Assembly (NCBI GenBank): GCA_947630645.1
Contig: CANRIF010000011.1
Coordinates: 1-37,884, forward strand
Source: an uncultured Oscillospiraceae bacterium
Lineage (GTDB): Bacteria > Bacillota > Clostridia > Oscillospirales > Oscillospiraceae
Length of the DNA: 37,884 bases
Direction: 5' to 3'
Below the pieces are notes generated by a model. The model had not been told where the DNA came from. It saw only the letters and a program-made list of their open reading frames with translations, and did no database searches. Every line of letters starts with the position of its first letter. The first letter of the stretch is position 1. Shown here piece by piece: positions 9,616-16,693 of the stretch. The position numbers and the translations under genes were made by a program.

Positions 9616-10602
9616 TCAACCGCCGACCAGCAGTCCGGCAAGTTCCCCCGCCGCTCTCTCCCATACAGCTTCCTCCGCGGCGGGCCGGACATAAAACCCT
9701 CCGCCGTCCCGGAAGCGGGCATACTGCATCAGGCTTTCCTGTGCGTGCAGCGTTTCAAAGGAGCGCAGGCGCTCATATCTCCTGCAAAAGATCTGTTCCC
9801 GGTACGTCTCATATAGGTACGGCGCGGTCGTATACATCCGCATCTCCACCCGCGCGTCCAGTGCCGCGAGCGTCAGCGGGATCGTGCCGCAGTAGCCGGA
9901 CTCCACCACCAGGACCTTTTCCTCCTTTAGCCCGTCCAGCAGCCCGTGAAGCGCCTTTTCCAGCGCGGGCTTTCCCTTCAACACGGCGCGGATGCGGCTT
10001 TTGCAGAAGTCAGTGAACGCCCCGTGGTCTGTTACGCCGCTCTCCAGCGCCTCGTAGACGGGCAGCCGCAGGGCGTCGTCCGCCCCCTGTCCGGCCAGCT
10101 GACAGAGAAAGCGCCGGTTGATGACCCAGGGATACAGCCCCTCCCTGTCCTTCACCCGGTAATAGAGATACGGCAGGAAGGTGTCCCGGAGCAAAAACAC
10201 ATAGGCGGTGCCAGGCCGCCAGCCGATCCACTCGCAGTAACAGCGCAGTTCCCGCAGAAAAGGGTTTCCGGACGGGGACGCGGTCCCCGCCGCGCGCTTT
10301 GTAAGTTCCGCGCAGACCGTCTCCAGTTCTGTCTCCTGGCCGTATGCCGTGTCCGCGTCCAGCCTTTTCTGCACGGGAAACGGCCGCTCGCCCTGCCGCG
10401 CCAGAAGTTCTTTCAGCCTTGATACGGCGCGGTACTTGTTCTCCAGCGCGTCAGCCAGCGCCGTATAGCCCTCGTCCAGCAGGTCGTCCAGCAGCTTCAA
10501 AAGCTGCTTTGCCTCATATATCCCGCTCTCGTCCAGGCGCCGGCCCTCCAGCCGGTCCAGCGCCTGGGCGTAGTATTTCTCGTGAAAGGAGAGAAATCCC
10601 AT
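9616..10602 (-). CDS. Uncharacterised protein; weak resemblance to HAD-like domains of polysaccharide-biosynthesis proteins
   Basis: 328-aa ORF translationally coupled (TGACATG) to the TraX-like gene; motifs YVFLLRDTFLPYLYYR, LYPWVINRRFL, KVLVVESGYCGTIPLTLAAL. The HAD suggestion is pattern-based only. Confidence 0.6.
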   Translation of the reverse strand: MGFLSFHEKYYAQALDRLEGRRLDESGIYEAKQLLKLLDDLLDEGYTALADALENKYRAVSRLKELLARQGERPFPVQKRLDADTAYGQETELETVCAELTKRAAGTASPSGNPFLRELRCYCEWIGWRPGTAYVFLLRDTFLPYLYYRVKDREGLYPWVINRRFLCQLAGQGADDALRLPVYEALESGVTDHGAFTDFCKSRIRAVLKGKPALEKALHGLLDGLKEEKVLVVESGYCGTIPLTLAALDARVEMRMYTTAPYLYETYREQIFCRRYERLRSFETLHAQESLMQYARFRDGGGFYVRPAAEEAVWERAAGELAGLLVGG

Positions 10603-10603
10603 G

Positions 10604-11410
10604 TCAGGCCATGAACCGGACTACCAGCCACAGGATGATCAGGTGTGCCGGATACAGCGCGTAAAAGACGTATTTCGCCCAGGGCCGCCTCTCCAGAAGC
10701 CTTCCCCGTTCCCCGTCGTAGCACCAGAGGAAAAAGCCGGAGATGGGCGCCGTCACATAGGGCACGCTCACCGCGCAGCCTACCAGGATACGCAGGCCCT
10801 TTTTCTCTTGCAGCAGGTAATACACCGCCGCCAGCAGCAGCGTGGGCAGGCCGAACGCCCCCTGCAATATCATGCTCCACAGCACGGATGCCACCACGAT
10901 GCACCCCTGGGCGATCCGGTACTGCGCCCCCTTCCGGCTCTGGAACATCTCCAGCCCGTAGAGCATCATCAGCCCCAGCGCGTAGGTGAACATCACGTTC
11001 TGACCGGAGAAGTCCCACACCTTGCCGTTCATGGCCAGGTCGTAGGGCACCTCGCTCACCACGGCGAAGGCCAGCACCGTGAGGATATACCGCCGGAAGC
11101 TGGCGGTGTGCAGAAAGCCCTCCACCAACAGAAAGGCGAACACCGGGATCGCAAGCGCCCCGATGAACTGGAGCATGGTGGACCACGCGGACAGCGTCAT
11201 CAGCAGCGGGTCCGCCTCCAGCGCCGCCATCAGTTCCTCGGGGGTGTGTTCCGTGGCCTGCAAAAAACCGTTCTGGAAGACGGCGCGGCCGGCGGTGTAG
11301 AAAAAGGCCGCCGCGCAGCCGTAGACCTTCAGGGCCGTGCCGGACATCCGCAGGCGCAGAGGGGGCTTCTTCTGCCACTGGTCGTTCATCGTGTGGAGCG
11401 TCTCTCCCAT
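10604..11410 (-). CDS. TraX-family membrane acyltransferase-like protein
   Basis: Multi-TM; FIGALAIPVFAFLLVEGFLHTASFRRYILTVLAFAVVSEVPYDLAMNGKVWDFSGQNVMFTYALGLMMLYGLE matches the TraX pattern. Confidence 0.82.
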   Translation of the reverse strand: MGETLHTMNDQWQKKPPLRLRMSGTALKVYGCAAAFFYTAGRAVFQNGFLQATEHTPEELMAALEADPLLMTLSAWSTMLQFIGALAIPVFAFLLVEGFLHTASFRRYILTVLAFAVVSEVPYDLAMNGKVWDFSGQNVMFTYALGLMMLYGLEMFQSRKGAQYRIAQGCIVVASVLWSMILQGAFGLPTLLLAAVYYLLQEKKGLRILVGCAVSVPYVTAPISGFFLWCYDGERGRLLERRPWAKYVFYALYPAHLIILWLVVRFMA

Positions 11411-11422
11411 GGATATGCCTCC

Positions 11423-12529
11423 TTACAGCGCCCGGATGGTGTCCTGGGCCGGCAGCGCACGGCCCTCATAGTCAAACAGCGTCTGGTTGGCCCACTCGTT
11501 GCCGCCGGGCCCCTTCTCGCCCACATACCGCAGCGCCTCCTCCGACGCCCAGCCGCTGCCGCACACGGGTATCCACGCCGGCTCCCACCAGATGAAGCCT
11601 CTGCCCCAGCCGCCAGGCACGGCCCGTATGGCCGCCGCCAGGTCCCGGATGAAGTCGCTCTGGCCCTGGGGGGACATGGGATAGTCCACGCCCGCCGCCA
11701 GCTTCGCCGTGGCGGCCATGCCCTTGCGCTCGCCGGCGGAGAGGTCCTCGTAGGCCGCGTAATCCTCCAGCGTGAAGCCCATGCTTGTCTCCGCCACCAG
11801 CACGTCCTTCCCGTACAGGGCGGATATCTCCGCCATGCTCTGGGCCAGGCCGTCGATGGGGCCGTTCCAGAAGGGGTAATAACTCATGCCGATCACGTCG
11901 AAATCCGCGCCGCCCGCGGCGAAATACCGCTCCAACCAGGTCTTGTAAAGGGCCGCGTTGGGGCCGTTGTCCAGGTGGACCACCGCCTCCGTCCCCGGCA
12001 GGACCTCCCGCACCGCCCGCAGCCCCGCGTTCATGAAGCGGACGATGCCGTCCATGTCCGGCCAGCGGCCCAGGGGCCAGAGAAGGCCGTTGGTGATCTC
12101 GTTGCCCACCGCCACAATGTCCGGGGCCAGGTCCTGCTCCGCCAGGGACACGAGCGCGGAGCGGGTGAAGGCGTAGACAGCCTCTTCCAGCGCCGCCGCG
12201 TCCAGGCCACGCCACGCCTTCGGCATGATCTGCTTGCCCGGGTCAGCCCAAAAGTCGCTGTAATGGAAGTCAAGCATCCACCGACAGCCCAGGTCCTTGG
12301 CCCGCCGGGCCAATATCGCCGTCCGCCCCAGGTCGTTGGTGCCCGCGCCATAGGGCCGGCCCTTCTCGTCATAAGGGTCGTTCCATAGCCGCAGCCGCAC
12401 CAGGTCCATCCCGTGCCGGCGCAAAATGGTCATAGCGTCGCCGGGGCCGGCCTCGTCGGTGAACCGGCCGCCGTGTTCCTCCACGTCCAGCAGGCTGGAC
12501 AGGTCCATCCCCTTGATGAATCCGTTCAA
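11423..12529 (-). CDS. Arabinogalactan endo-beta-1,4-galactanase (GH53), no signal peptide
   Basis: FIKGMDLSSLLDVEEHGGRF, MDLVRLRLWNDPYDE, GCRWMLDFHYSDFWADPGKQIMPKAW, VAVGNEITNGLLWPLG (acid/base Glu), VLVAETSMGF (nucleophile Glu). Confidence 0.94.
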   Translation of the reverse strand: MNGFIKGMDLSSLLDVEEHGGRFTDEAGPGDAMTILRRHGMDLVRLRLWNDPYDEKGRPYGAGTNDLGRTAILARRAKDLGCRWMLDFHYSDFWADPGKQIMPKAWRGLDAAALEEAVYAFTRSALVSLAEQDLAPDIVAVGNEITNGLLWPLGRWPDMDGIVRFMNAGLRAVREVLPGTEAVVHLDNGPNAALYKTWLERYFAAGGADFDVIGMSYYPFWNGPIDGLAQSMAEISALYGKDVLVAETSMGFTLEDYAAYEDLSAGERKGMAATAKLAAGVDYPMSPQGQSDFIRDLAAAIRAVPGGWGRGFIWWEPAWIPVCGSGWASEEALRYVGEKGPGGNEWANQTLFDYEGRALPAQDTIRAL

Positions 12530-12765
12530 GCCTTGCCGTCCTCCCCGGAGAAATCCTCAAAGTCCGTGAAGCGCCGGTACATGGCCCCATAGCGGAAGCG
12601 GGCCATGCGGTTTTTCTCCTGCACGTCCGCCTCGCTGCCCCGGTACTGGCAGCGGATGCAGTAATACTCGTCCCTGTCCTTATCGTAGAACATATCGATG
12701 TCCAGGTCCCGCATGAAGCAGGACGGGCAGCGGTAATTCAGTCTGCCCTTTCCAGCTTGAGCCAT
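12526..12765 (-). CDS. Small CXXC...CXXC zinc-ribbon protein
   Basis: RCPSCFMRDLDIDMFYDKDRDEYYCIRCQYRG; overlaps its upstream neighbour by 28 nt and shares ATGA with the GH53 start. Confidence 0.75.
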   Translation of the reverse strand: MAQAGKGRLNYRCPSCFMRDLDIDMFYDKDRDEYYCIRCQYRGSEADVQEKNRMARFRYGAMYRRFTDFEDFSGEDGKA

Positions 12766-14576
12766 GTGGCAAAGACCTCCTTTTCTCTCAACGTGCCTGT
12801 GTAACCCAGGGTGAACATGGGGCTGAAGGCGTAGCCCTCCCGGACGTAGCCCGTCTTGTCCCGGCCCTGGCAGGCCATGGATACTTTCGTCTTGATGGGC
12901 GGGATGACGCAGGACACGCTATCCGCCCCGGATGCCGACGCCTCCCGGCACTTGTACTCGTAGGGGATGGTCTGCACGCTCTCCCCCGCCGACACCGCCA
13001 GCGTCAGACTGGTCATGTCCTCCGGGTACTCGGTGGTGCCGTAGCAGGCCACCATATACTCATTGACCGTCACCTCGGCGGCCGGGTCGCTCATAGACAG
13101 CACCCGCCGCTCGATCTTGATGTCCCCCGTCCCCTCCGGGAAGGTGATCACGGTCTGCAATTTGATCGTCAGGTCGGAAAACTCGATGTCCACCGGGTCC
13201 AGGGTCAGCACCCGGTCACCGCCCTGCTGGGAGAAGTGGCTGTGGGTCCGGCACAGGCACAGGTCCACCTCCTCGCCGCCATGGCACACCTTGGCGCTGC
13301 GGACGGTCCCCTCCCCGGCGTAGTGGGTGAAGTAGCCGGCCCGGTATTTCTCCTGGATAAGGAAGGGGTAGCTGGCGTCCTGGACGTGGGGCGTGCCGAT
13401 GCCCACGGGCCATTCCAGCTTGGCGGCGTAGGGCCGCAGGTCCACGATGGCGCCGCCCTGGTCCATGTTGACGCAGGCCCGCATATAGGGGTCGCAGTAC
13501 CAGAAAAGCTGCTTGTCGCTGCCGTAGAGGATATCCCGCCACAGGGCGCACTCCGGCTCGGTGTAGGTCTTTTTTGCCCGGTAGAAGTCGGCAAACTCGC
13601 TCATGGTCATGTCGGTGAGCTTGCCCTCTTTTTTCAGCTGGCCGTAATAGGCGCAGCCGTCCTCGTAGGACTTTTTCAGCAGCTCGTAGGGCGCCTCCCA
13701 CCGGCCCATCTTGTTCATCCAGCCGGGTCCCACGAACATCATATTGTAGGCGTAGCCGTTGTTGAACTTGGCAAGGGAGCGATATTGGTCGATCAGGTTG
13801 TAGAGATAGGGGTACTCCCAGGTGTCCGCATCGTAGATCATGCCCCGCAGCACGTTCTGCGGGTGGGTGCCGAAGTTGGAGCCATTGCCGTCATAGCAGG
13901 CCAGCAGGTCCCGGGACAGGTGCGGGATCGCCACGATGCCGCTGTCCTCGGCCGCGTTCGCGGCAGGGGCGTGGGTGTTCTGCTTGGACGGGATCCAGGG
14001 CGCCCAGGGGCCGCCGTCCATCAGGGTGTACCAGGAGTTGTTGCAGGTGTGGTAGGCCTTCGGCCCCTCCTCCCAGCAGGTAGCCACGGCGCACTTGACG
14101 CTGGGGTATTCCGCCTTGATGAAGTTGATAAGGTCCGCGTCCATGTAATAGGACCCGGTGGATCCGGGATAGAAACCGAAGGCGTCGTGGAACTTCTCGA
14201 ACACGTCCCGGACGATGGCCTTCTTGTCCTCCATGGAGAACATCCAGATACAGAAATCCTTGGTCTTATACTTGGCCCGGAACTGCTCACAGGGCAGGCC
14301 CAGGAGGCTCAAGGCGATCTCGTCGCCGTACTTTTCATGGTGTTCCTTGGCGATGGCCACGGCCTCGGCGTTGAAGAGGCTGGCATAGGTCATCTGGATG
14401 GTGGTCTTCAGGCCGTTGTCATGGGCGATCTGCTGCTGGGTCTTGAAGATATCCAGGCTCTCGGTCAGAAGGGCCTTGCGGCCGATGTCCTCGGCCTTGC
14501 CCTGGCCGGTGACCTTCTCGGCGTACTCCGGCACCATCTCCGGCCGGTGGATGATGTTGACGATGAACTGGTCCAT
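12738..14576 (-). CDS. Uncharacterised ~612-aa protein, candidate carbohydrate-active enzyme (polysaccharide deacetylase/alpha-mannosidase-like barrel suspected)
   Basis: Long ORF from MDQFIVNIIHRPEMVPEYAEKVTG with GGGAGGG RBS; coupled to GH53 and divergent from GH42. Fold suggestion rests on layout (N-terminal catalytic-like region plus C-terminal beta-rich region), not on a named motif. Confidence 0.75.
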   Translation of the reverse strand: MDQFIVNIIHRPEMVPEYAEKVTGQGKAEDIGRKALLTESLDIFKTQQQIAHDNGLKTTIQMTYASLFNAEAVAIAKEHHEKYGDEIALSLLGLPCEQFRAKYKTKDFCIWMFSMEDKKAIVRDVFEKFHDAFGFYPGSTGSYYMDADLINFIKAEYPSVKCAVATCWEEGPKAYHTCNNSWYTLMDGGPWAPWIPSKQNTHAPAANAAEDSGIVAIPHLSRDLLACYDGNGSNFGTHPQNVLRGMIYDADTWEYPYLYNLIDQYRSLAKFNNGYAYNMMFVGPGWMNKMGRWEAPYELLKKSYEDGCAYYGQLKKEGKLTDMTMSEFADFYRAKKTYTEPECALWRDILYGSDKQLFWYCDPYMRACVNMDQGGAIVDLRPYAAKLEWPVGIGTPHVQDASYPFLIQEKYRAGYFTHYAGEGTVRSAKVCHGGEEVDLCLCRTHSHFSQQGGDRVLTLDPVDIEFSDLTIKLQTVITFPEGTGDIKIERRVLSMSDPAAEVTVNEYMVACYGTTEYPEDMTSLTLAVSAGESVQTIPYEYKCREASASGADSVSCVIPPIKTKVSMACQGRDKTGYVREGYAFSPMFTLGYTGTLREKEVFATWLKLERAD

Positions 14577-14689: not shown

Positions 14690-16693
14690 ATGATAGACAA
14701 ATTGCTTTACGGCGCGGCGTACTACGCCGAGTATATGCCGGAGGAGCGCATCGAAAAGGACATGGAGCTGCTCGCCGCGGCGGGTTTTGACCTGATCCGG
14801 GTGGCGGAGTCCGCCTGGAGTACCTGGGAGCCGAGGGACGGCGTATTTGATTTCTCCCTGCTCACGCGGGTGCTGGACGCGGCCCAGGCCCACGGCATAG
14901 CCGTCATCGTGGGCACGCCCACCTATGCCATCCCCCCGTGGCTGGCGCAGAAATACCCAGACGTGATGGCGGACACCCACGCCGGCCCCTGCCGCTACGG
15001 CCACCGGCAGAACTTCGACCTGACCCACCCCGGTTACCGCTTCCACGCCGAGCGCATCATCCGCCGGCTCATGGAGGCTGTGGCCGCCCACCCCGCCGTC
15101 ATCGGCTATCAGCTGGACAATGAGACAAAGCCCTACGACACCTGCTCGCCCCGGGCGCAGGCCCTGTTTAAGGACTGGCTCAAAGAACGCTTCGGCACTG
15201 TGGAGGCTTTCAACGCCGAGATGGGCCTCGCCTACTGGTCCAACTCCATCGCGGACTGGGACGAACTGCCCGACGTGCGCGGGACCATCAACGGCAGTCT
15301 GGGCGCGGAGTACGCCGCCTTTCAGCGCCATCTGGTGACGGAGTTTCTGCTCTGGCAGCGGTCCATCGTGGACGAATACCGGCGGCCGGATCAGTTCGTC
15401 ACCCACAATTTCGACTACGAGTGGCGCAACTACTCCTTCGGCTTACAGCCGGACGCGGACCAGTTCGAGGCCGCCGCGGCGGTGGACATCGCTGGGTGCG
15501 ACATCTACCACCCCGGCGAGGACGCTCTCACCGGGGCGGAGATCGCCTTCGGCGGCGCCCTGGCCCGGGGGCTGAAAAAGTCCAACTACCTGGTCCTGGA
15601 GACACAGGCCCAGGGCAATTTTGGGTGGCTGCCCTACCCCGGCCAGCTGCGGCTGCAAGCCCTGGCCCACATCGCCTCCGGCGCGGACGGCGTGGAGTAC
15701 TGGCACTGGCACAGCATCCACAACGCCATCGAGAGTTACTGGAAGGGCGTTTTGAGCCACGATATGGCCCCGGGCCAGACGTACCGGGAGGCGGCCCAGA
15801 TCGGCGCGGAGCTGCAAAAACTCTCCCCTCACCTGCTGCATCTGCAAAAACACAGCCGGGTGGCCGTGATGGTCAGCAACCGCTCCCAGACAGGCCTGGC
15901 CTGGTTCCCCACCTGCCAGCAGGGCGAGACGCCGGACAAGAATTACAGCGACTACCTGCGCTGGCTCTGCGACAGCCTCTATCGGCTGAACGTGGAGTAC
16001 GACATCGTCTCTGACGCCCAGCGTGACTTTTCCGGCTACGATCTGCTGGTGCTGCCCTGCCTTTACGCCGCGGACGAGGACCTGCTGCGGGCTGTGGACG
16101 GGTATGTGAAGGACGGCGGACATCTGCTGGCCACGTTCCGCACCGGCTTTGCGGATCGATACCTCAAGATATACCACGACGCCCAGCCCCACCTGCTCAC
16201 CCGCTGCCTGGGCCTGACCTACGACCGATTCACCAAGCCCGTGGGCGTGACCCTGGCCTCGGACGCCATCGCCCTGCCGGATGATACGCCCGTCACGGAC
16301 TGGATGGAACTGCCGGAACTGCGCGGCGCCCGGGCGCTGTGCGTATACGACCACCCGTTCTGGGGCGGCATCCCCGCCGTGACCGAGAACGACTACGGCG
16401 CGGGCCGGGCAGCCTACCTGGCCGCCTGCTTCTCCCCCGCCGGGCTGGACGCGGTGCTGGAGGCGCTGCTGCCCCGGCTGGGCGTGGACGTGCCCCGGGA
16501 GCGGTTCCCCCTGGTGGTGCGGCGCGGCGTCAACGGAATGGGCCGGGAGGTCACATTCTACTTCAACTTCTCCTCCTCGCCACTCCCCGTGCCGGACCAC
16601 CCCGCCGGGACCCTTCTGCCGGAGGAGACGGCCCTGGCCCCGGATACGCCCATAGAGCTGCCGCCCTGGGGCGCGGTCCTTTTGGAACAATAG
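14690..16693 (+). CDS. Beta-galactosidase, GH42
   Basis: LLYGAAYYAEYMPEERIEKDMELLAAAGFDLIRVAESAWSTWEPRDGVFDF; VIGYQLDNETKPYDT (acid/base); YLVLETQAQG (nucleophile); GADGVEYWHWHS. Confidence 0.95.
   Translation: MIDKLLYGAAYYAEYMPEERIEKDMELLAAAGFDLIRVAESAWSTWEPRDGVFDFSLLTRVLDAAQAHGIAVIVGTPTYAIPPWLAQKYPDVMADTHAGPCRYGHRQNFDLTHPGYRFHAERIIRRLMEAVAAHPAVIGYQLDNETKPYDTCSPRAQALFKDWLKERFGTVEAFNAEMGLAYWSNSIADWDELPDVRGTINGSLGAEYAAFQRHLVTEFLLWQRSIVDEYRRPDQFVTHNFDYEWRNYSFGLQPDADQFEAAAAVDIAGCDIYHPGEDALTGAEIAFGGALARGLKKSNYLVLETQAQGNFGWLPYPGQLRLQALAHIASGADGVEYWHWHSIHNAIESYWKGVLSHDMAPGQTYREAAQIGAELQKLSPHLLHLQKHSRVAVMVSNRSQTGLAWFPTCQQGETPDKNYSDYLRWLCDSLYRLNVEYDIVSDAQRDFSGYDLLVLPCLYAADEDLLRAVDGYVKDGGHLLATFRTGFADRYLKIYHDAQPHLLTRCLGLTYDRFTKPVGVTLASDAIALPDDTPVTDWMELPELRGARALCVYDHPFWGGIPAVTENDYGAGRAAYLAACFSPAGLDAVLEALLPRLGVDVPRERFPLVVRRGVNGMGREVTFYFNFSSSPLPVPDHPAGTLLPEETALAPDTPIELPPWGAVLLEQ

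Follow-up and report, generated by a model that had tools for sequence, protein, structure and literature searches.

A conserved 612-residue protein with a zinc-ribbon partner is a candidate cytosolic enzyme of galacto-oligosaccharide breakdown in Oscillospiraceae and Lachnospiraceae

The 612-residue protein encoded at positions 12738..14576 on the minus strand of a 37,884-nucleotide stretch of DNA from an uncultured Oscillospiraceae bacterium (the window) is considered, with moderate confidence, to belong to an unnamed family of carbohydrate-active enzymes, to be located in the cytosol and to take part, together with a small zinc-ribbon protein (ZNR), in the breakdown of imported beta-1,4-galacto-oligosaccharides. 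This reading is drawn from the linkage of its gene to ABC transporter, cytosolic GH53 and beta-galactosidase genes, the lack of a signal peptide, a predicted domain layout of the GH57/GH38 type and the modules fused to a divergent member; the enzymatic activity, the substrate and the binding of ZNR are all what we infer. If true, the pair would represent an unrecognised enzyme and its partner protein in a widespread uptake pathway for galactan, a pectin side chain, in gut Lachnospiraceae and Oscillospiraceae. It would also add a carbohydrate-active family not recognised before, unusual in having a zinc-ribbon partner, and would permit more exact predictions of fibre use by butyrate producers such as Roseburia hominis.

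The reading frame opens with an ATG at 14576-14574 preceded by a GGGAGG ribosome site; an in-frame TTG 33 codons above this ATG lengthens the open frame, a start for which the homologues give no support. Judged from full-length homologues at 76-93% identity in many genomes, the frame is a real gene. It belongs to the target-like subfamily A described below. The first-pass annotation had reported an open reading frame of about 612 aa without a signal peptide and had quoted three distinctive segments of it; the frame was found with this length and strand, no signal peptide was detected in the 612 aa, and all three segments are present in the translation. Its statement that the protein carries no standard GH, PL or CE signature also held, as searches against Pfam and NCBIfam returned 0 families each at E<=1. 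Likewise, no match was obtained in PHROGs, in the PDB when the protein was searched as a single sequence, or with the GH42 and GH53 Pfam profiles, which match only the neighbouring genes. No Pfam family is common to 62 homologues, and no paper naming the protein was found in the open-access literature.

The most constant partner of the gene is the zinc ribbon. ZNR (12526..12765, minus strand; 79 aa, CPxC...CxxC) overlaps the 3' end of the 612-aa gene by 28 nt, and its start, which lies inside the end of that gene, is served by an AAGGAGG ribosome site of its own, suggesting that translation of the two is probably coupled. A CxxC...CxxC open reading frame starts within about 60 nt of the stop codon of the homologous gene in 87/87 close loci with enough sequence, so that the two look, from their gene arrangement, like an obligate pair.

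In the window, the ZNR stop is in turn overlapped by the gene of a GH53 endo-beta-1,4-galactanase (11423..12529, minus strand), a protein of 368 aa without a signal peptide in which the Pfam domain begins at residue 5 (E=6.8e-105). On the other side, 113 bp from the 612-aa gene, a GH42 beta-galactosidase is encoded divergently (14690..16693, plus strand; Pfam E=1.2e-79). The neighbourhood predicted earlier, a zinc ribbon, a GH53 and a divergent GH42, is therefore present, with the reading frames located and both glycoside hydrolases confirmed by Pfam. No operator-like inverted repeat was found between the 612-aa gene and GH42, and no sugar ABC genes lie beside the operon in the window. The gene was described as the head of the operon, which is the case here; elsewhere it usually lies downstream of two ABC permease genes, the usual order in close loci being LacI, SBP, permease, permease, the 612-aa gene, ZNR and GH53, often followed by TraX. 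The window carries such a gene for a TraX-family membrane protein at 10604..11410 (minus strand; tblastn, and Pfam of a homologue with E=1.2e-29). In many related operons, too, GH53 is followed by a TraX homologue (for example, L096:12334-13137). For a 328-aa open reading frame downstream of TraX (9616-10602, minus strand), no conserved counterpart was found beside related loci.

The link to galactan is conserved across homologues. A same-strand GH53 gene was found within 3 kb of the 612-aa gene in 79/85 assessable loci, downstream in 71 and upstream in 8; homologues thus do co-occur with galactan enzymes. Near the other 6/85 loci GH53 is absent and ZNR is retained. In most linked GH53 copies the protein begins directly with the domain (cytosolic type); a second GH53, of a secreted type and with 28-42% identity, is encoded separately. 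Among 99 relatives, the cytosolic type was found in 17 genomes, all of which have the 612-aa gene, and in none of the 77 genomes lacking the gene. The association is significant by Fisher's test (p about 5e-15; within the genus, about 1e-5), though kinship overstates the independence of the genomes, and the secreted type shows no association within the genus (p=0.3). The genome of the window itself has a second GH53 match with 42% identity inside an 1104-aa open frame (G000:C86:1629-2618), and this longer type carries a signal peptide in several related loci. In a Roseburia hominis strain, the 612-aa gene lies beside GH2, ABC and GH53 genes. R. hominis and R. faecis have been reported to possess an arabinogalactan locus with three GH53 enzymes, two of which carry a signal peptide and CBM61, implying that one of the three is intracellular; growth of R. 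faecis on type 1 arabinogalactan was reported in the same paper (PMC5320581).

A match to the 612-aa protein was found in 25 of the 99 relatives, nearly all of the same genus, and a class-wide profile search detected family members in 24/392 genomes; a sample of the phylum gave none outside the class and none at all beyond the window's own copy. A scan of species-representative genomes recovered at least 532 stretches encoding relatives, and the best 80 of these, full length with 76-93% identity, belong to Oscillospiraceae and Lachnospiraceae, among them R. hominis, Agathobacter ruminis and Petralouisia muris. Among 73 sequences of the protein, 298 of 612 columns are invariant. Compared with the window copies, the 612-aa protein has a median identity of 83% and GH53 of the same loci one of 56%, a gap that remains large even though the 80 loci were picked as the best matches to the former, a bias in its favour. 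It is more conserved than GH53 in 79/79 pairs, and despite this both it and ZNR have been missed by annotation databases. Four homologues (L093, L096, L103 and L109) have Ala/Gly/Ser-rich insertions in the same beta-sandwich loop after residue 451, some of them with further insertions near residues 495 and 531.

Alignment of 21 members resolved three subfamilies: A (about 600-612 aa, 61-93% identity), B (562-595 aa, 32-36% identity) and C (about 500-530 aa or about 740-800 aa, 15-20% identity). Nine columns are invariant in 21/21 members, namely N7, T59, G134, P137, C167, G188, P196, A205 and D223. At the end of strand 1, H10-R11-P12 (14541..14549; this and the following motifs are on the minus strand) is replaced by HR, QR or HK in subfamily B and by NF in C; we take this position to resemble the HQP region of GH57. 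Strand 4 contains F133-G-x-Y-P-x-x-x-G-S-x-x-x-D146 (14139..14180), in which G134 and P137 are shared by A, B and C and D146 nearly so, and strand 5 ends in C167-W-E169-E170-G (14064..14078), in which every subfamily has E or D at residue 169. These are followed by P196-S-x-x-N200-x-x-x-P204-A205 (13962..13991) and by D223 (13908..13910). The strongest candidates for catalytic residues, judged by conservation and position, are D146, E169 and D223, with E169 as the putative catalytic acid.

The predicted fold has two domains. An N-terminal (beta/alpha) barrel of approximately residues 1-340 (13557..14576, minus strand) is suggested by the AF2 model, Foldseek, a match to PDB 3LM3 and a weak in-register similarity to the deacetylase core; for the C-terminal residues 424-612 (12741..13307, minus strand), AF2 and Foldseek suggest a beta-sandwich like that of galactose mutarotase. 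The AF2 model built from 62 close homologues reached a pLDDT of 69 and a pTM of 0.70, with pLDDT mostly 83-97 in residues 424-612 and low confidence in residues 166-246, likely the active-site loops; its alignment comprised close homologues only. The single-sequence model (pLDDT 37) was useless. In Foldseek searches against the PDB, the top match was the GH57 4-alpha-glucanotransferase 1K1X, which spans both domains (E=2.2e-11), followed by galactose mutarotases and YidC periplasmic domains with the same beta-sandwich, GH38 mannosidases (Bl_Man38A-C, E=6.5e-7) and the peptidoglycan deacetylase 3QBU (E=8.5e-6, target TM 0.56, on a model of moderate confidence). Query-normalised TM-scores are low (about 0.2-0.3; 0.27 for 1K1X, so that its domain packing is not recovered), as both the loops 166-246 and the positions of the domains relative to each other are uncertain. 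Searches of a viral structure library with the model gave only weak, mostly short matches.

A profile of the diverse family alignment found 3LM3 (E=2.1e-8), an uncharacterised DUF3863 protein (PF12979) and the only solved relative found by sequence; the subfamily C profile also had 3LM3 as its top match, weakly, and the close-homologue profile alone did not detect it. The match extends over 256 positions, beginning at strand 4 and reaching into the first portion of the C-terminal part, and both sides share the PS...PA motif, largely kept in 3LM3, together with fGW, EF and W...R motifs, while D146 is a serine in 3LM3. This comparison rests on one structure, which we take to be the founder of PF12979. 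No tested member reaches the PF12979 gathering cut-off of 27 bits, the best being one distant member with 14 bits (E=0.022), and DUF3863 had no matches across 292 genomes of the class, a negative that falls short of proof, control genomes being likewise silent.

The earlier proposal of a barrel related to deacetylases or GH38/57-like folds with a beta-rich C-terminal half agrees with the 3LM3 homology and with the Foldseek matches, and no strong match to a characterised family with an unrelated role emerged. Placement in this superfamily is thus reasonably supported, but the evidence does not support assigning the protein to CE4, GH38 or GH57. A GH57-like architecture is suggested by the 1K1X match across barrel and sandwich, with the low query TM noted above, but the protein has no PF03065 match and an HHalign probability below 1% against clostridial GH57, and the region aligned to the WLPE nucleophile motif (W-x-x-E) reads GSYYMDAD, with no Glu. 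GH38 alpha-mannosidases share the barrel and a large beta-sandwich, but they are proteins of 800-1000 aa rather than 612 aa. No PF01074 match was obtained, the profile comparison with clostridial GH38 gave an HHalign probability below 1%, and the metal motif H-x-D is absent from strand 1 across the subfamilies.

In Bacillus subtilis, the ganSPQAB galactan operon encodes an SBP, two permeases, the GH42 enzyme GanA and a GH53. The loci described here resemble it in that a single operon combines GH53 with an SBP and two permeases, for the same inferred substrate, but differ in that the 612-aa gene and ZNR occupy the position of GanA and that the linked GH53 lacks a signal peptide. In the proposed pathway, secreted GH53 enzymes would cut pectic beta-1,4-galactan outside the cell, an ABC transporter would import the galacto-oligosaccharides, and cytosolic GH53, the 612-aa protein and GH42/GH2 beta-galactosidases would degrade them. 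The 612-aa protein would likely cleave a bond left by GH53 and GH42, for example at a branch or an end, and the dedicated ZNR would most likely bind it as a subunit or stabiliser. This role in pectic galactan uptake is proposed for subfamily A. The first-pass annotation had envisaged action on galactan side chains or decorations; the connection with galactan proved strong, but an imported oligosaccharide is the more likely substrate, since both the protein and its linked GH53 lack signal peptides.

The GanA-like position raises an alternative, that the protein is a further beta-galactosidase replacing GanA between the permeases and GH53, and many loci do show this order with no adjacent GH42 or GH2; in one carrier genome (G202), a weak and partial match is all there is of GH42, and GH2 of the LacZ type was not seen. 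We consider this unlikely, as a full GH42 or LacZ-type GH2 is present in nearly all of 24 genomes bearing the gene, so that a step beyond the reach of these enzymes is likelier than a simple beta-galactosidase role, and as the window has GH42 close beside the gene. The pair could instead be a non-catalytic sensor or scaffold, for example one assembling cytosolic galactan enzymes or controlling expression, and the very strong conservation could then reflect protein-protein contacts, zinc ribbons often binding proteins or nucleic acids. Yet the conserved positions are rich in D, E, H, W and R, as in sugar enzymes, a divergent member bears carbohydrate-associated modules, and LacI or AraC genes already supply regulation, so that such a role seems quite improbable.

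Least probable, and in our view very unlikely, is a metal-dependent, CE4-like carbohydrate esterase that deacetylates galacto-oligosaccharides. The barrel is of the deacetylase type, as seen in the 3QBU match, its core aligns in register with clostridial deacetylases (TF, G-E-I and FG..P; HHalign probability 21%, hence weak), and the operon includes the acetyltransferase-like TraX gene. The D-H-H metal triad of CE4 is nevertheless missing, with the HTxxH histidines falling on S90 and L94 in that same weak alignment; strand 1 reads NIIHRPE in place of the DDG motif, and the protein has an extra beta-sandwich domain compared with CE4.

A cytosolic enzyme of galacto-oligosaccharide breakdown thus remains the preferred reading for subfamily A, but galactan is not the sole context of the family, as GH53 is missing near the six loci above and subfamily B occurs in other glycan loci, beside PL8, GH36-like, GH31/GH78/GH42 and other genes. 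A zinc-ribbon open reading frame lies directly downstream in 8/8 subfamily B members, so that the pairing outlasts the change of glycan context. By inspection, none follows the subfamily C genes, the one flagged case being a chance match with stop codons. More tentatively, and as a possibility short of an even chance, the protein and ZNR may be the two obligate components of one enzyme that represents a new carbohydrate-active family, has an active site unlike those of GH38, GH57 and CE4 and catalyses a cytosolic galacto-oligosaccharide step outside current pathways; subfamily B pairs may act alike on other glycans.

Several divergent members have distinctive settings. Two subfamily C genes lie in tandem at L047:5739-8889 (minus strand), and a distant member at L145:643-3033 (minus strand), which adjoins a GH20 gene, is fused to Fn3-associated/CHB_HEX_C and F5/8-type C modules. 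At L178:10062-17798 (minus strand), a subfamily B member shares a cluster with genes for two pyruvate-formate-lyase-like (glycyl radical) enzymes and with one resembling raffinose synthase.
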